Source: a virus. From it: a stretch of DNA of 23,789 nt. The stretch covers positions 1 through 23,789 of IMG/VR virus record IMGVR_UViG_3300020439_000081; one strand, given 5' to 3'. The notes beneath the pieces are model-generated. The model was not told where the DNA came from. It saw nothing but the letters and a program-made list of their open reading frames with translations, and searched no databases. Shown in pieces: positions 2,542-21,519 of this stretch (its first letter is position 1; each line of letters starts with the position of its first letter). The position numbers were made by a program, and so were the translations under genes.

Positions 2542-2567
2542 TTAGTTATCTCCTTCCACAAAGATGT

Positions 2568-5979: not shown

Positions 5980-6216
5980 TTAGTCGCCACCGCGTTCTGA
6001 TTGTACAAATACGTAGTGGATAACATTATTCCAGTTCTCAAAGTGATGAATGTATAGTCCGTGTCTGTGTAACCAATCACGTAACTCACCTGTGCTATCT
6101 ATGTACTTAGGATTGTTTTTATGTATAACAATAAATCCTCTACCAGTTTCACCAACTGATTGTACAAGTTCAGACAACATAAAGTTATCATCAAACGTAG
6201 TATTAATTGCAGTCAT
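5980..6216 (-). CDS. hypothetical protein, first gene of the early block, 78 aa
   Basis: This 78-residue protein opens the early block. A strong GGGAGG lies about seven bases before its ATG. The sequence is mixed alpha/beta with many His/Trp residues (RDWLHRHGLYIHHFENWNNV). A TATACT at 6239-6244 could be its -10 box, but I see no convincing -35. Being first after the intergenic regulatory region, it should be among the earliest expressed. Function unknown. Confidence 0.6.
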   Translation of the reverse strand: MTAINTTFDDNFMLSELVQSVGETGRGFIVIHKNNPKYIDSTGELRDWLHRHGLYIHHFENWNNVIHYVFVQSERGGD

Positions 6217-6271: not shown

Positions 6272-6306
6272 AAAAAACACCAGATCGGAGTAAGATGACC
6301 TGGTGT
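6272..6306 (-). terminator. rho-independent terminator, minus strand
   Basis: On the minus strand ACACCAGGTC (6297-6306) pairs with GATCTGGTGT (6277-6286): 10 bp with one G-U and a 10-base loop, immediately followed by six T residues (6272-6277). It ends any late transcript coming from the metallophosphoesterase gene as well as putative small RNA C, separating late from early genes. Confidence 0.8.
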
Positions 6307-6355
6307 CAAGGATAAGAGTAAAGGAGGAAACCTCTTATCAATGAATTGAGTGTTG
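6272..6355 (-). ncRNA. putative small RNA C, minus strand
   Basis: An extended -10 (TGGTATAAT, 6362-6370) would start a transcript near 6355 that ends at the terminator 6272-6306. The RNA of about 84 bases has a single-stranded start, then a perfect 8-bp hairpin (6332-6339 with 6311-6318). Its 13-base loop displays CCTCCTTTA, the same word as the anti-Shine-Dalgarno end of 16S rRNA. The terminator stem follows. Two hairpins with a pyrimidine loop is typical of RNAs that bind ribosome binding sites. The transcript itself is inferred. Confidence 0.45.
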
Positions 6356-6361
6356 ACATTA

Positions 6362-6370
6362 ATTATACCA
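6362..6370 (-). promoter_or_regulatory. extended -10 promoter of small RNA C
   Basis: The minus strand reads TGGTATAAT, a consensus extended -10 (TGnTATAAT). No good -35 is seen 17 bases upstream, which extended -10 promoters can tolerate. It lies within the plus-strand promoter for small RNA B. Confidence 0.4.
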
Positions 6371-6378
6371 CATGGTAT
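6365..6378. promoter_or_regulatory. inverted repeat, candidate operator between divergent promoters
   Basis: ATACCA and TGGTAT form 6-bp arms around a 2-base centre (CA). The repeat covers the spacer and -10 of the plus promoter and part of the minus extended -10, so a protein bound here would control both small RNAs. The winged-helix-like protein at 3944-4201 is one possible binder, though nothing direct links them. Confidence 0.35.
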
Positions 6379-6387
6379 TGTGGTGAG

Positions 6388-6460
6388 ATCAGATAACATC
6401 TAAACGTGTTATCTCCTTCCCAAGCAATAAGGCGGTCCTGTGAGACCGCCTTGCTTTTTA
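6388..6460 (+). ncRNA. putative small RNA B, plus strand
   Basis: The transcript would run about 73 bases from the promoter at 6353-6381 to the terminator at 6429-6459. A perfect 8-bp 5' hairpin (6391-6398 with 6407-6414, loop TCTAAACG) is followed by an unpaired C-rich stretch (CCTTCCCAAGC) and the terminator hairpin. This is the textbook shape of an antisense small RNA. Positions 6408-6420 (GTTATCTCCTTCC) are exactly complementary to the ribosome binding site of the minus-strand gene at 1711-2541. Confidence 0.45.
6429..6459 (+). terminator. rho-independent terminator, plus strand
   Basis: AAGGCGGTC (6429-6437) pairs perfectly with GACCGCCTT (6444-6452) around a 6-base loop, followed by GC and five T residues (6455-6459). 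The T-tract exists only on the plus strand. No plus-strand protein gene precedes it. Confidence 0.75.
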
Positions 6461-6509
6461 TGTACCTTACTATGGCACCGTATTGATTACAAAATTAATT
6501 ATAAAGTTG

Positions 6510-6537
6510 TTGACAAGGATTGCAATTAGTATAAAAT
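6510..6537 (+). promoter_or_regulatory. plus-strand sigma70-like promoter of small RNA A
   Basis: TTGACA (6510-6515), a 16-base spacer, then TAAAAT (6532-6537), which matches the -10 consensus in five of six. It points towards the terminator at 6582-6624. The surrounding sequence is AT-rich, so a chance -10 is possible; the perfect -35 is the stronger part. Confidence 0.45.
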
Positions 6538-6543
6538 ATTTAT

Positions 6544-6622
6544 ATCTAATTAAATACGCCATATTCTATTAGAGTAAAGCTAAGTCAGGTGTGTAGCTCT
6601 CAAACACATCTGACTTTCTTTT
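6544..6622 (+). ncRNA. putative small RNA A, plus strand
   Basis: From the promoter at 6510-6537 to the terminator at 6582-6624 this would be a transcript of about 79 bases. It has a 6-bp hairpin (TCTAAT 6545-6550 with ATTAGA 6568-6573), a short linker and the 13-bp terminator stem. Its 3' end is antisense to the last codons and stop of the metallophosphoesterase gene. It shows no clear target sequence. Confidence 0.4.
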
Positions 6623-6624
6623 TT
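6582..6624 (+). terminator. rho-independent terminator, plus strand
   Basis: AAGTCAGGTGTGT (6582-6594) pairs with ACACATCTGACTT (6604-6616): 13 bp with one G-U, a 9-base loop, then a T-rich tail (TTCTTTTTT). It touches the stop codon of the minus-strand gene at 6623-6625. The minus-strand copy lacks a T-tract, so it works mainly for plus transcripts. Confidence 0.75.
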
Positions 6625-7843
6625 ATACGATCTCTTTGTTGTTGTGTCCGTTGCTATCAACAACCATAGTCATTACACCTTGTTTAGTTTTCTTACCTGC
6701 TTGATGTTCAAACCATGTACTTTCATCTAAGCTAGGTACTTGTATCCATGTGCGTCCGTCATGTAATTCACGGTGATGATGGTAATGACCTGTGACAAGA
6801 ATGTCACTGGATCCTGCATGGAAGCCACCAAATGTTTGGTTCTTCCACCAGTTCATAAGTTTATTTTCTACTGTGCCACTGTAACCTGCAAGATGTCCGT
6901 GTGTAAAACTCATGTTTGTACCGCATACATTTAGTGATAGGTGTGGCTCATCTGGTATAACAAACTTAACATGACTGTATTGTGGTTTGTCTGCAAATAT
7001 CTCTGCTATCTGCTCAAACACTTCTATGTCATAGTTGTCCATCTCTCCTGTTGGTGCTAAGTTCTTTGCAATTCTTTTAGTTCCATGATTACCTGGCACT
7101 GCACCTACAACTACTACATCAAAGTCTTTAGACCATTCAACTAATGCTTTTGCAATAATTCTTCTGGCTAACTTCATCTGGTTCCGATAATCAAGTTCGA
7201 CACCGTTAGGTCCCATTGCTTGCGGGTAGAAGCCTACGCAACCTTCGACAATATCACCTAATCCCACAACAGTTAACTGATCTAACTTAACTCCTGCTTT
7301 ACGTAAAAAGTTATAACGATCACGTACTGTATCTATCTTCTCTAAAAATCTATTTACAATAGCTTCAGTACCACCACCATCACGTTTACCTAATTGCAAG
7401 TCTGATATTGCAACAAAGAAACTAGCTTCTGGTTGTTTTACTTTTGGTTTAGCTTTACGCTTATACGATTGTATCCATTTAGATATGCGGTCATAGTCTT
7501 CTGTATCAAGCACATGCTCTTTGTAAACTATCTGTGCTTTGTATGCCCACGCTTGTTGCACGTCTCCTTTGCCCAAATTCATATCCCACGTGCTTACACG
7601 TATTGTGTCATTTAGGATAGAATATTTTTCAGGATCAAATCCCCACGATCTAAGTAGGTCATCAAACTCTGGGCTTGCATTCTGCATAGCCCGTGTTGTT
7701 ATAGTACCTGTCTTAGTTTTGTAATTAAATTCTACACCAGGTTCCCAACCGTTAGGGTGGTTAGGTGTATCTTTAGTTTCGTTGTGTGGTACGTCCTGTT
7801 GGGTTGCTGTAAGTTTACTTACCTGCGAGTTGTTTTTTTGCAT
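6623..7843 (-). CDS. calcineurin-like metallophosphoesterase, 406 aa
   Basis: Motifs appear in order: SDLQ (147-150), GDIVEG (196-201), GNHG (251-254), THGHLAG (314-320) and TGHYHHH (351-357). This is the two-metal phosphoesterase fold. Motif I is D-x-Q where the family usually has D-x-H, so one metal ligand is altered. An N-terminal domain of about 130 residues (GWEPGVEFN, SPEFDDLLRSWGFDPEKY, IRVSTWD) is of a type I associate with actinobacteriophages. A basic linker separates the two. It is the last gene of the late block and overlaps the holin gene by 29 bases. It may act on DNA or nucleotides; the substrate is unknown. Confidence 0.8.
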   Translation of the reverse strand: MQKNNSQVSKLTATQQDVPHNETKDTPNHPNGWEPGVEFNYKTKTGTITTRAMQNASPEFDDLLRSWGFDPEKYSILNDTIRVSTWDMNLGKGDVQQAWAYKAQIVYKEHVLDTEDYDRISKWIQSYKRKAKPKVKQPEASFFVAISDLQLGKRDGGGTEAIVNRFLEKIDTVRDRYNFLRKAGVKLDQLTVVGLGDIVEGCVGFYPQAMGPNGVELDYRNQMKLARRIIAKALVEWSKDFDVVVVGAVPGNHGTKRIAKNLAPTGEMDNYDIEVFEQIAEIFADKPQYSHVKFVIPDEPHLSLNVCGTNMSFTHGHLAGYSGTVENKLMNWWKNQTFGGFHAGSSDILVTGHYHHHRELHDGRTWIQVPSLDESTWFEHQAGKKTKQGVMTMVVDSNGHNNKEIV

Positions 7844-12005: not shown

Positions 12006-12716
12006 CTATATGTTTTTTAAATACCCACCTTTAAATTTAGAATGTACTCGAAATAAATTTTCTCTGCATTTATCTTCCCAATCTTGTGTCCATGTTTCAA
12101 TTTCAAGATCATATTCCTCTCTTTTGAATGGAACGTAATAACACAATGGTTCACCCTGTTTAATCATTATTTGTTTTTTGTTTTCAGCAGTAATAATTAA
12201 TTGTTGATTTAATATATGATGTTTATCTGTATGTAAAACGCCATAAGGTATATACCAATCTGGATTGTAATGGTAAAGTAGTGGAACTTGATACACACTA
12301 TATCCAGGTGGTGTCATCATACGCCATACTGATATAATTTTAAATACTTTTTGTATGTTTGCACTATTAGGAACGTAATCTTTCATTTGTTTATCGTGAT
12401 GTAATTGTATTTCATATTCCTCAAATGATGTAGCCCATTCCCATTCACCACCTTCCTCCCACCTAAAATACATATCACAATGTGCAGGTATAACAAATCC
12501 GTTATAAAAAATATCTGTAAAACTAGGACATAATTTTATTGTTTTGCTTTGTGGAATTAATTTTGTATAGTGATCATCTTTAGGTGTAGGTGGCATATCT
12601 GTATACCATTTAGGAATAAAATTTTTAGCAGGTTGTGGTCTGCAACTATCTATGTTTTCCAACCCTTTAAACGGTGTGCTAAATTTTAATGTTGGTTTTT
12701 TATTTTTTTGAAACAT
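12006..12716 (-). CDS. halogenase-cassette protein, paralogue 1, 236 aa
   Basis: This soluble, aromatic-rich protein starts after TTAAAGGAG and overlaps the halogenase gene by 17 bases. It includes NFIPKWYTDMPPTPKDDHY near the start, then VWRMMTPPGYSVYQVPLLYH and a C-terminal IKQGEPLCYYVPFKRE. The last motif recurs in the 228-residue protein on the other side of the halogenase (FKKGEPLGYLYFSKE), and both have I-x-x-CP about a quarter of the way in, so they look like diverged paralogues. The strand-rich pattern suggests a beta-sandwich or jelly-roll fold. I recall relatives beside phage halogenases but know no function. Confidence 0.7.
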   Translation of the reverse strand: MFQKNKKPTLKFSTPFKGLENIDSCRPQPAKNFIPKWYTDMPPTPKDDHYTKLIPQSKTIKLCPSFTDIFYNGFVIPAHCDMYFRWEEGGEWEWATSFEEYEIQLHHDKQMKDYVPNSANIQKVFKIISVWRMMTPPGYSVYQVPLLYHYNPDWYIPYGVLHTDKHHILNQQLIITAENKKQIMIKQGEPLCYYVPFKREEYDLEIETWTQDWEDKCRENLFRVHSKFKGGYLKNI

Positions 12717-13851
12717 TTAACTCCTTTAATTTTTTTAATATGCCTAATGAATTTATATTTTGATTAAAGCTGTGCATTCTCCAGACACCATAATCATATA
12801 CTAAATCGTAACCTATATTATTTATATTATCTAATATCTCTGTATATTCTCTCTGGTTTAGTGAATTGTCAGACAAACATTTCTCTGCTAAATTTTTAGC
12901 ATAATTCCAAAACTCATTGTCGTATTTAGTTGCACCCAAATAGTGCATTACAATAATATCTTGCAACTGTTTAAAAGTTTTTTTGTACCACTCGTTGTGT
13001 TCATCAATGCTTTCTTTATTAACTATGCTGTCATATATTTTACGATTAATATTGTCAACTGTTGTAAGACTTGTTGCTTCCATAGGTTCTAAAAAAAACG
13101 AAGCATTCCCGTTGTACGCAATGCTTTCAAAAAAGTTTTGTTTACGATAATAATTATTAAAATCTAATCTATTTTCTTGCTCTGTAGGTTGCATTCCATA
13201 ATTATCTATTACTTCTAAAAGTTGTTCTTTAGCAACATTATGATCTGTAATTTGCTGATTATACATGTATCCCCATGACATTCTATAGGATAAAGGAATA
13301 CCAAATATCCAACCATATTCAGCAGCTATACATATTGTATAATCGTATATAGGATAATCCCAATTACATTGTCTAACGTAGGCAGTATTAACAGGAATAA
13401 ACTCTGCAAATTCAAAATCATCAAATTTATTTGGAGTTCCTGAACAATCTATAATAAAATCTGCGTCTATGTCATACACATTATTTACTTTTATGTCCTT
13501 AAATTTCACTCTATTTTTGTTTTTTTCTGCAATGTACTCTTGTAAATCAATTGCGCTAAAGTGCATAGATATACTTGGAGGAGGAAAAGTGTGCATATAA
13601 TTTTCATCAGTCCAATTAATATAATGAATGCCATTTTTATATTGACCGTGAAATTCTTTCATTTTGTAAAACTCAAAACCTGCTGTGTAATGTAAATTTC
13701 TAGGTAATGTAACAGTTGTTCCTTCTCCAACTGTTTGCTCTTTTGATAAAGTATCGTAGTAACATTCTATTTCCCAATCCGTATAATATCCAAAATGATT
13801 ATACGTTAACGAACCTGCTGTTCCTTTACCGATCACTGCTAATTTATTCAT
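12700..13851 (-). CDS. flavin-dependent tryptophan-halogenase-like protein, 383 aa
   Basis: Residues 7-13 (IGKGTAG) are the FAD-binding glycine motif. VGEGTT at 41-46 matches the VGEAT segment. QYKNGIHYINW places Lys72 where the halogenases have their catalytic Lys. DCSG (135-138) is a further FAD motif. GWIFGIPL (180-187) is a WxWxIP variant with Phe for the second Trp. FLEPMEATS (253-261) matches the EPLEATS loop with its conserved Glu. These enzymes use reduced FAD, oxygen and halide to make hypohalous acid and chlorinate or brominate tryptophan-like substrates. At 383 residues it is much shorter than the usual 500 or more, lacking part of the substrate-binding C-terminal region, so the substrate may differ. 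No flavin reductase gene is nearby. The cassette is visibly more AT-rich than the fibre genes. Confidence 0.8.
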   Translation of the reverse strand: MNKLAVIGKGTAGSLTYNHFGYYTDWEIECYYDTLSKEQTVGEGTTVTLPRNLHYTAGFEFYKMKEFHGQYKNGIHYINWTDENYMHTFPPPSISMHFSAIDLQEYIAEKNKNRVKFKDIKVNNVYDIDADFIIDCSGTPNKFDDFEFAEFIPVNTAYVRQCNWDYPIYDYTICIAAEYGWIFGIPLSYRMSWGYMYNQQITDHNVAKEQLLEVIDNYGMQPTEQENRLDFNNYYRKQNFFESIAYNGNASFFLEPMEATSLTTVDNINRKIYDSIVNKESIDEHNEWYKKTFKQLQDIIVMHYLGATKYDNEFWNYAKNLAEKCLSDNSLNQREYTEILDNINNIGYDLVYDYGVWRMHSFNQNINSLGILKKLKELNVSKK

Positions 13852-15809: not shown

Positions 15810-16925
15810 TTAACTAAAATCTAATAATGCGTTTATAAGTGGTGTTCCTGCGTCAAAAAATAAAAAGGTCACTAAATCTACATCATTAGCACCTGTGCTA
15901 AGTGTAAGACCTGCTGCACCTGCTGTAAGTCCTGTAACATCTGAACCACCATTTACTGTTATTGCGTTAATAGCCATAGTTCTTGAACCAGTGCCATCTT
16001 GTGTTACTTTCAATGTAAATGATGATGTTCCATTTGTAGGAACATTTGTAAAGTCTATATCTGTTACAGAGTGTCCAAGAGTAACACTGCCTGTATTACC
16101 ATTTGCTAAGTTTATGGCTAATGTTGTTCCTGAAGTTACAGCTACATCTGTTTCAACATAATCTTTTAGTGACACAGCGCTTATCTCTTGATCACCACCA
16201 GTTACTGCACCTGATAAAGTTACAGCACCTAATGTTTTATTTGTAAGAGTAGCTGTCTCGCTGTCAGCATAGTTCTTAACTGCTGCTGATGTAGGTATTG
16301 TTGTGTCATTGTCATTAGATGTGATAGTTTCACTTTCAGTAACTAATGATCCTGCTGCTATTTCTGAAGTTGTAAGTCCACCAACATTTAATTGTCCTGA
16401 TGAAGCGGTAACACCTGTGCCTGCAATACCTGACACTAAATCTGCAACGCTTTCTTTTTTAACTTTGCTACTGTCGTCTGCGTCAATAATAGGTATTTCA
16501 TCTGCTGCAACGTTTACTGTTGCTGCTGATACGTCTAATTTAACTTCACCTGCTGTACCGCTAGAGTATGTTGTATCAACAACTTTACCTAGTGCGTCAA
16601 AAATATCTTCAAAGTGTTGCTTCATTGGTGCAACACGTACTTTAGATCCTGATGGGTGTGTTAAACCAGAACCTGCTGCAGAACCACTAAGGTATCTATT
16701 GTCTGCAGTTGTTGTTGTAAATGATGTAGCAGCAACTGTGCTGTCTATAAATATGTATTCTCTTTGTGTAGCACTGTCAGGTTCTACCACTATGTAACAT
16801 GGTGTAGCTAGACCTGTTGTAGAAGCTACGTTGATTGTTAAGTCACTAGCACCTAATTGCGAAGAGAGTGTAGTCTCAAACGCGTTAGCTGTAGTACTTT
16901 CTGCTGCTTTTCTTGTGTTTGCCAT
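15810..16925 (-). CDS. tail fibre, 371 aa
   Basis: A Thr/Ala/Ser/Gly-rich, strand-repetitive protein with almost no Cys or Trp. It contains motifs familiar from marine phage fibres: TSAAVKNYAD, TATLTNKTLGAVTLSGAVTG and AADEIPIIDAD. The N-terminal 100 residues (NAFETTLSSQLGASDLTINV ... REYIFID) should attach to the virion and the rest form a trimeric shaft. GGAGAAAAATAG precedes the ATG. It lies between the nozzle-like gene and the glycine-rich adhesin. Confidence 0.75.
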   Translation of the reverse strand: MANTRKAAESTTANAFETTLSSQLGASDLTINVASTTGLATPCYIVVEPDSATQREYIFIDSTVAATSFTTTTADNRYLSGSAAGSGLTHPSGSKVRVAPMKQHFEDIFDALGKVVDTTYSSGTAGEVKLDVSAATVNVAADEIPIIDADDSSKVKKESVADLVSGIAGTGVTASSGQLNVGGLTTSEIAAGSLVTESETITSNDNDTTIPTSAAVKNYADSETATLTNKTLGAVTLSGAVTGGDQEISAVSLKDYVETDVAVTSGTTLAINLANGNTGSVTLGHSVTDIDFTNVPTNGTSSFTLKVTQDGTGSRTMAINAITVNGGSDVTGLTAGAAGLTLSTGANDVDLVTFLFFDAGTPLINALLDFS

Positions 16926-16951
16926 ATTCTATTTTTCTCCTATTTAGTATA

Positions 16952-20027: not shown

Positions 20028-20360
20028 TTAGCTTTCTCTATATAAAAAAGTTATTTTTCTTGCAGACGCTTCAGTAGAACCAGATACTACACGTAAAAAA
20101 CCTGTAGAAGCAAAAGCCCAACCACTAGGATCTACTCTTACTACGTCATCTGTACTTACTGTATAGCTTACTGCAGTTCCATCAGTCTCTTTAACATCTT
20201 TCCAACCACCAGGACTAGAAGCCCATTGCATTGTGATTGTTGTTCCAGTCATAGCTGATGGAAATATGATTGCTGACAAAAGCATTCCGTCTGTATTAGA
20301 ACCTTCGCTAGCTGTAGATCCGCTATCTATTTGTACTATATCTTGTTTAAATCTTGCCAT
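20028..20360 (-). CDS. small beta-rich virion protein, 110 aa
   Basis: Strand-rich throughout: IVQIDSGSTASEGSNTDGML, TTITMQWASSPGGW, VVRVDPSGWAFASTGFLRVV, KITFLYRES. Its position between the capsid gene and the connector suggests a head decoration or head-completion protein. AAGGAACG precedes the ATG, which follows the hairpin at 20381-20422. There is no enzyme motif. Confidence 0.6.
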   Translation of the reverse strand: MARFKQDIVQIDSGSTASEGSNTDGMLLSAIIFPSAMTGTTITMQWASSPGGWKDVKETDGTAVSYTVSTDDVVRVDPSGWAFASTGFLRVVSGSTEASARKITFLYRES

Positions 20361-20380
20361 ATTCGTTCCTTATTTTAGCA

Positions 20381-20434: not shown

Positions 20435-21487
20435 TTAAGCGTTAGAAACGTTATCAATTTCACAGTGATATTGTTGTGGACCAAAGTCAAAGCCCATTTC
20501 CATATATACTGCTTTTGCAATTCTTGCATTATCGTTTTGATCTAAGTCTCTTACAAACATAGTTCCATAACCTGGAATGTTAAGGAATACTGGTTTGACA
20601 AAAGACATGTCAACGATAAAGTTTTTCTTACCATCATTAGATCCTGCAGGTAGGAAGTCAGACAAAGCAAGTCCGATTGTTCCAAAAGGTGTAACGATTG
20701 TATCAATGTCAACACCTCCTACATTTCTATCTCTAGGTAAGATACCGTAATTCTTTCCTGATACAACAGTTGCGTTTACTATTTCTTTGTTAAGATCAAG
20801 CAAAGCTGTTGGTTGACAGAAAAGCACTAAGTTTCTCATTGGTGCGCCTGCGTCATACAATTTTTTCATTGCTGCTGCAATTACATCAAAGTTAAGTTTT
20901 TGTGCAGTTCCTGTTCCATCACCATCTGTATCGTGATAGACAATGTTGCCGCCAGATAAAGAACAGTGTTGATCAAGACCTCTCATTTGACGGTTACCTG
21001 ATGTACCATCATTATAAGCGCCATTGAATGCTGACCATTCTACTTTCTTTGCGACTGTTTCTAATACTAATTCCATTTGATAAGCAAGCTCATCATTAAT
21101 TGGATTGTTACCTGCTAATGCTAAGGCAGGATCGGAGTTCTTATAGTTTCCTGATAATTGAAACGGTACAATTTCTCCAGAAGCTGCTTGTGCAGTATAA
21201 GATACTTGTGCTGCTTCGTGGAAAATTTGTAGTACGCCCTGTTGTGCGCTTCTGCTTCTTCCAGAATAGTTAGGTGAACCACCTTCGTCATCTGGTGTAA
21301 CAGAAGAGACTGTTGCATTATCTTGTGTTTGGAACTGAAAGAATGTTGAGTTGATCGCAACTCCTCCGTTAAGTCCGCCTGCAGCAGCTAGCAATGGTGT
21401 TCTATGAGGTGTGATTTTAAATAATTCACCAGTAAAGTTATTAACGTCACTAGCAACTATTGGATTAGCACCTGATATTGCTGCCAT
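20435..21487 (-). CDS. major capsid protein, SU10-like (HK97 fold)
   Basis: The 350 residues match the SU10-like/DUF5309 capsid type. The start has GANPIVASDVNNFTGELFKI, residues about 40-100 are a loop with NSTFFQFQTQD, and a long spine helix region holds ELAYQMELVLETVAKKVEWS then AFNG. The peripheral domain has RNLVLFCQPTALLDLNKEIV and the end KAVYMEMGFDFGPQQYHCEI. The protein forms the icosahedral shell. It directly follows the scaffold and is preceded by GAGAAGGGAAATAG. The hairpin at 20381-20422 follows it. Confidence 0.8.
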   Translation of the reverse strand: MAAISGANPIVASDVNNFTGELFKITPHRTPLLAAAGGLNGGVAINSTFFQFQTQDNATVSSVTPDDEGGSPNYSGRSRSAQQGVLQIFHEAAQVSYTAQAASGEIVPFQLSGNYKNSDPALALAGNNPINDELAYQMELVLETVAKKVEWSAFNGAYNDGTSGNRQMRGLDQHCSLSGGNIVYHDTDGDGTGTAQKLNFDVIAAAMKKLYDAGAPMRNLVLFCQPTALLDLNKEIVNATVVSGKNYGILPRDRNVGGVDIDTIVTPFGTIGLALSDFLPAGSNDGKKNFIVDMSFVKPVFLNIPGYGTMFVRDLDQNDNARIAKAVYMEMGFDFGPQQYHCEIDNVSNA

Positions 21488-21519
21488 ATTCTACTATTTC
21501 CCTTCTCTCTTACGAGATA

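Follow-up and report, generated by a model that had tools for sequence, protein, structure and literature searches.

The region analysed here comprises positions 6272–6624 of the IMG/VR record IMGVR_UViG_3300020439_000081 (positions 1 to 23,789 of the record; the whole stretch of 23,789 nucleotides is hereafter termed the window). It is flanked by a gene at 5980–6216 and an exonuclease gene at 6623–7843 (phrog_284 match), both on the minus strand, and no plausible genes lie between them. The region is built up of three units, one on the minus and two on the plus strand, each consisting of promoter-like hexamers, a hairpin and an intrinsic terminator with a U-run. Compared with 200 dinucleotide shuffles, the folds of the three units, referred to as RNA A, RNA B and RNA C, reach z values of −4.23, −5.96 and −5.60, respectively, and each is better than all 200 of its shuffles. 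Folding reveals three terminators, two on the plus and one on the minus strand, at the positions noted in an earlier sequence-only reading, and also confirms the second hairpin that this reading had placed between start and terminator in each unit. A simple terminator scan of the region listed 6428–6453 only, as the loops of the RNA A and RNA C terminators exceed its loop limit of 8. By sequence and folding, the units thus display the attributes of stand-alone small-RNA genes, namely an own promoter, a compact structure and an intrinsic terminator with no ORF needed. Rfam searches at the gathering and at a relaxed threshold (to E 10) returned chance-level matches only for all three RNAs, a tRNA/tmRNA search found none present, and no nucleotide match of the region to any phage record was found. 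Promoter-like matches in the region are not commoner than in shuffles, i.e. they occur at the chance level of AT-rich DNA, and the case for small RNAs therefore rests on the comparison across relatives.

RNA A (6272–6355, minus strand; about 84 nt), whose 5′ end was inferred from the −10 box TATAAT (6362–6367, minus), is composed of a first hairpin (6339–6311) and an intrinsic terminator hairpin with a 10-bp stem (6277–6306) and a U-tract (6276–6272). The first hairpin presents a 13-nt loop, GUUUCCUCCUUUA (6319–6331), which is constant in relatives and contains CCUCCUUU, whose eight letters are those of the anti-Shine-Dalgarno (anti-SD) end of 16S rRNA. RNA B (6388–6460, plus strand; about 73 nt) starts with a hairpin (6391–6414), followed by a linker and a terminator (6422–6456) formed by a stem and a T-run. 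Its anti-SD-like segment CUCCUUCCC (6413–6421) is partly located in the foot of the hairpin and mostly in the linker, and varies little among relatives. The RNA B promoter (6353–6381), whose core is conserved in relatives, combines TTGACA (6353–6358) and TATTGT (6376–6381) with a spacer of 17. Its −35 box overlaps the predicted RNA A start, and the RNA A −10 box, likewise conserved in relatives as ATTATA, lies within the RNA B promoter spacer. Since this overlap of the two promoters is conserved in relatives, RNA A and RNA B can probably not be started at the same moment. An inverted repeat (6365–6378) previously considered to be shared by both promoters is not conserved (GCATGC in L003, none in L061); a function as operator was therefore rejected, and the repeat is best regarded as resulting from the back-to-back arrangement of two −10 boxes. 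RNA C (6544–6624, plus strand; about 80 nt) is preceded by the promoter TTGACA (6510–6515) and TAAAAT (6532–6537) with a spacer of 16 (6510–6537, plus), whose 11/12 match shares the top rank among the promoter-like sequences of the window. Its first hairpin (6546–6574) presents GCCAUAUUC and precedes an intrinsic terminator (6582–6616) consisting of a stem and a T-rich run. The seed GCCAUAUUCUAUU (6559–6571), of which the GCCAUAUUC part is invariant, is predicted to be engaged in part in base pairs of the hairpin apex (probability of being unpaired, 0.35–0.63).

An IMG/VR search with the exonuclease and the neighbouring small protein yielded 107 loci, and 25 relative contigs were taken for the target analysis. 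All representatives of RNA A (23), RNA B (18) and RNA C (11) fold with z between −3.3 and −8.9. Structure conservation was assessed by a pair count for RNA A and by folding of diverged representatives for RNA B and RNA C. In the case of RNA A, 12 nt of the loop, AAAGGAGGAAAC, are found at this place in every related locus reaching the region; the loop was counted 102 times in 48 distinct surroundings by an exact search of the IMG/VR loci, in which its invariance is partly inherent. The 8 loci devoid of the loop all end before the region, and no locus with the region present and the loop changed was found among the loci collected. Fifteen distinct stems surround the constant loop in about 100 related loci. 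In a loop-anchored comparison of these stems, 90% of the stem cells are paired vs 37–57% for slid pairings, and several positions switch among A-U, U-A, G-C and C-G, so that the structure is conserved via compensatory changes. The loop motif itself is predicted to be unpaired with a probability of 0.99–1.0 in the 23 representatives. RNA B and RNA C have diverged stems and terminators and the same two-hairpin plan. The hairpins and terminators of RNA B vary among lineages, all 18 representatives fold as two hairpins, and the linker CUCCUUCC is retained almost throughout, L035/L051 carrying CACCUCCAUU in its place. RNA C is present in at least four sublineages (the window/L029; L043/L061; L039; L044), among which GCCAUAUUC is fixed while the stems and terminators differ. 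It is confined at this place to some sublineages, the other lineages being without RNA C here. In L018, L022, L037 and L033, extra small genes or unrelated sequence are located where RNA C would sit, and this flank of the cassette, from RNA B up to the exonuclease gene, thus resembles a hot spot of sequence exchange.

The comparison across relatives, which had been suggested as a check, thus revealed promoters, hairpins and terminators that are kept while the stem sequences change. The proposal of a three-RNA cassette, in which overlapping promoters drive two of the small RNAs divergently, holds up with lengths of about 73–88 nt, and we consider the cassette very likely to be real. A two- or three-RNA cluster is carried by this virus and dozens of relatives. 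Three further loci found by the loop alone (L190, L210, L236) also encode a similar small protein, next to which RNA A and a related form of RNA B are retained. As to function, we probably deal with three stand-alone phage small-RNA genes whose products act in trans on translation initiation. A different assignment would regard RNA A as the leader of the early operon and its terminator as an attenuator before gene 5980–6216, which is read through via a phage factor or the leader. RNA A is indeed encoded on the same strand as the early genes, and the first start codon follows about 56 bases past the U-tract. However, no alternative antiterminator pairing is evident, and although the sequence of the terminator stem varies among lineages, folding still predicts the terminator in 23/23 representatives. 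Moreover, relatives contain a further −10-like element between terminator A and the first gene (TTTACG-17-TATAAT in L003; weak in the window), and a leader would not account for RNA B and RNA C, neither of which faces a gene; this assignment is thus unlikely.

For a trans-acting RNA, the most specific evidence is provided by RNA C. The complement of its loop, GAATATGGC, occurs in the window at the start codons of three genes and at RNA C itself, and nowhere else. The corresponding predicted targets, all on the minus strand, are the start of the major capsid gene (21483–21493, UAGAAUAUGGC, 11 nt complementary), whose product matches the phrog_1328 major head protein, the start of the late-region gene 15810–16925 (16921–16933, AAUAGAAUAUGGC, 13 nt complementary) and the start of gene 20028–20360 (20356–20364, GAAUAUGGC, 9 nt complementary). 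When 9-mers were counted around the ATG starts of frames of ≥80 codons, GAATATGGC proved to be the commonest one at start codons in the nine RNA C contigs (232 kb), where it is found at 9 distinct genes, the next 9-mer at 5, and only 2 occurrences lie outside start codons. The contigs without RNA C (449 kb, about twice the sequence) contain GAATATGGC at the starts of 5 distinct genes. A scan of every 8-mer likewise indicated that start-site matches concentrate in the conserved loop or linker of each RNA, the remaining RNA parts and the gene interiors being close to background; any anti-SD sequence matches ribosome sites trivially, which affects the matches of RNA A and RNA B, but not those of RNA C.

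The distribution of seed and sites among the relatives points in the same direction without being uniform. Sites exclusive to RNA C lineages are found at the g83 homologue (G009/G013/G014) and at g90 (G007), and G016, which differs very little from the window in the RNA A and RNA B segments, has neither RNA C nor the capsid site. However, G001, G002, G017 and G018 contain GAATATGGC at the capsid start though no RNA C is present at this place, and G009 and G014 have RNA C but capsid starts without GAATATGGC. Because of these cases seed and target do not track each other strictly, and as judged from the contigs compared the association between RNA C and GAATATGGC is real but not strict. In G007 (pieces L155 and L156) the cassette is, unlike in the other relatives, oriented opposite to nearly all other genes including the capsid gene, despite the clear relationship of its exonuclease and capsid protein to those of the other relatives. 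The complement of the RNA C loop is still found at three start codons; as the pairing persists with the targets on the other strand, the action would be in trans. A cis-antisense RNA does not fit, since the predicted targets are located at distances of about 4–15 kb and, in G007, on the opposite strand. RNA C therefore combines a conserved accessible seed, partly unpaired by prediction, with distant translation starts, as expected of a trans-acting antisense RNA, and we find it fairly likely that at least RNA C acts on translation starts. These data also bear on a mere punctuation function, in which back-to-back terminators would separate the late and early units and the promoter-like sequences would be chance products of AT-rich DNA. 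The position of the region at a gene-block boundary and the chance-level frequency of the promoter-like matches are compatible with this explanation. Yet two of the terminators face no gene, each unit contains a second conserved hairpin/loop needless for a terminator, the 13-nt loop of RNA A is constant over many stems and the RNA C loop matches the start codons of many genes, so that punctuation alone appears quite improbable.

Within the preferred assignment of trans-acting small RNAs, the partners of RNA B and RNA A are predicted to be SD sequences. The CUCCUUCC segment of RNA B may pair with the SD regions of phage early genes, a possible target in the window being the ribosome-binding site of gene 1711–2541 (2545–2557, minus strand, GGAAGGAGAUAAC, 13 nt complementary). 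Matches of 10–14 nt between RNA B and early-gene ribosome sites were obtained in several lineages, six genes being matched in G006 alone. A GGAAGGAGATAA(C)-like sequence recurs at many early ribosome sites of the window and its relatives, including lineages with a non-matching RNA B, and genomes in which the 5′ part of RNA B differs are also rich in GGAAGGAGATAA ribosome sites. When RNA B was swapped between lineages, the own RNA was not the best fit to the own genome, and the RNA B targets are therefore considered as a lead only. No consistently conserved phage target was found for RNA A in the genomes of the relatives. Opposite RNA A, the plus strand contains a tiny non-conserved frame (AUG AAU UGA) after AAAGGAGG. 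The wide fixed loop of RNA A suggests a constant partner, for example strong SD sequences of host mRNAs, and a role of RNA A as a broad anti-SD RNA is plausible. Its open loop with the letters of the 16S 3′ end would most likely pair with strong SD sequences, the predicted partners being UAAAGGAGGAAAC-type sites in host mRNAs, and the lack of a consistent phage target implies that RNA A probably acts on host mRNAs. That RNA A (and RNA B) might instead serve as decoys or mimics, with the loop imitating the 16S tail and thereby drawing in either a factor associated with the ribosome or a host toxin nuclease that cuts the anti-SD, would agree with a loop in which all 13 nt are fixed although an SD match requires fewer, and with the missing consistent phage target, but is very improbable, since the anti-start-codon loop of RNA C is not covered, no nuclease or binding protein was identified, and a constant loop is equally expected of a broad anti-SD RNA as in αr14 (PMC10746234).

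Based on these data we propose a scenario for the trans-acting small RNAs. The three RNAs would be transcribed from host-type promoters. The GCCAUAUUC(UAUU) loop of RNA C would pair with the start codon and upstream bases of late-region genes, including that of the major capsid protein, and block the entry of the ribosome, probably early in infection or until the RNA C level falls. Translation initiation would thus be blocked on phage mRNAs by RNA C and perhaps RNA B, and on host mRNAs perhaps by RNA A. The analysis demonstrates the units themselves as well as their conservation, stem covariation and complementarity, while expression, intracellular pairing, and the direction and timing of the effect are what we infer. 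As the exposed loops match ribosome-landing and start sites, the virus probably uses the RNAs to set which proteins are made and when. In its most far-reaching form, which we regard as rather unlikely, the scenario would amount to a viral translation switch made of RNA only: two RNAs with copies of the anti-SD tail would mute host and early mRNAs, the third would mask the start codons of the capsid gene and further late-region genes up to the time of assembly, and a single locus of 350 bases, whose divergent promoters exclude each other, would produce all of them. If true, RNA alone would serve phages to schedule the synthesis of their structural proteins and perhaps to silence the host. To our knowledge, most phage small RNAs with a described function originate from a few temperate phages of enterobacteria; here, the loops of a conserved multi-RNA cluster in widespread uncultured phages show complementarity to SD sequences and the capsid start codon. 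The predicted RNA-target pairs are concrete and testable by reporters without the uncultured host.

Trans-acting RNAs with anti-SD loops are already known, and the new element is the three-RNA phage cassette; a cluster of this kind is not described in the passages covered from the accessible literature. The αr14/NfeR1 RNAs of α-rhizobia expose a constant anti-SD motif unpaired on changing stems and block translation at the ribosome-binding site without Hfq (PMC10746234). RNA A resembles them in its one constant anti-SD loop on changing stems and may function in a similar way. In contrast to RNA A, however, αr14/NfeR1 are chromosomal, contain CCUCCUCCC instead of CCUCCUUU, form three anti-SD hairpins per RNA and have no anti-start-codon partner. 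Membership in this family is ruled out by the RNA A loop CCUCCUUU, the single anti-SD hairpin and the absence of an Rfam match at E 10. In mycobacteria, the structured small RNA 6C/B11 uses C-rich loops for pairing with ribosome-binding sites (PMC10470900); unlike the phage RNAs reported here, its loop is a cytosine run and it is host-encoded. Membership in 6C/B11 (two C-run loops, Rfam 6C model) is likewise ruled out, with no Rfam match. In both cases the RNAs are not assigned to the known family because the motifs differ and Rfam gave no match. Among phages, the c4 antisense RNA of P1/P7 pairs via its loops around the ribosome-binding site of a phage gene and blocks translation (reviewed in PMC12197685). 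c4 differs from the cassette in acting on an antirepressor gene (immunity), and it neither forms a three-RNA cluster nor is directed at several late-region genes. CfrI of cyanophage S-PM2, an antisense small RNA of a lytic marine phage, is linked to psbA (PMC12197685); unlike the cassette it represents one locus, and the review makes no mention of a loop that stays constant while stems change.

The window derives from an uncultured virus of bacteria that is probably marine, an origin attributed to it in the earlier reading. PHROG matches were obtained for terminase and portal, that of the terminase large subunit being clear. The further attribution to the podoviruses was not borne out: the nearest named relatives of exonuclease, major capsid protein and portal belong not to marine podoviruses but to actinobacterial phages (of Mycobacterium, Propionibacterium and Streptomyces), all of them distant with <60% identity. 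An actinobacterial host is therefore possible on the grounds of protein relationship. WhiB, a marker of actinobacteria and their phages, is absent from the 13 contigs searched, and a search of a collection of bacterial and archaeal genomes found no relative of the exonuclease. The late region of the window also contains a tryptophan halogenase-like gene (12700–13851, minus strand; phrog_2928).

The RNA A loop is found in bacterial genomes at no fewer than 118 sites among the matches listed, nearly all of them without a stem, and hence these matches provide no evidence of a host homologue of RNA A. The exact loop GGTTTCCTCCTTTACC is also located on perfect, differing 9–12-bp stems in four unrelated contigs. 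In L205 the hairpin follows the major capsid gene of a prophage with 62% GC, in L213 it is part of a contig with 49% GC, in L229 it lies beside tRNAs, and in L349 the loop sits in a terminator-like hairpin of a bacterial contig. By a rough estimate, these four stems exceed chance expectation.
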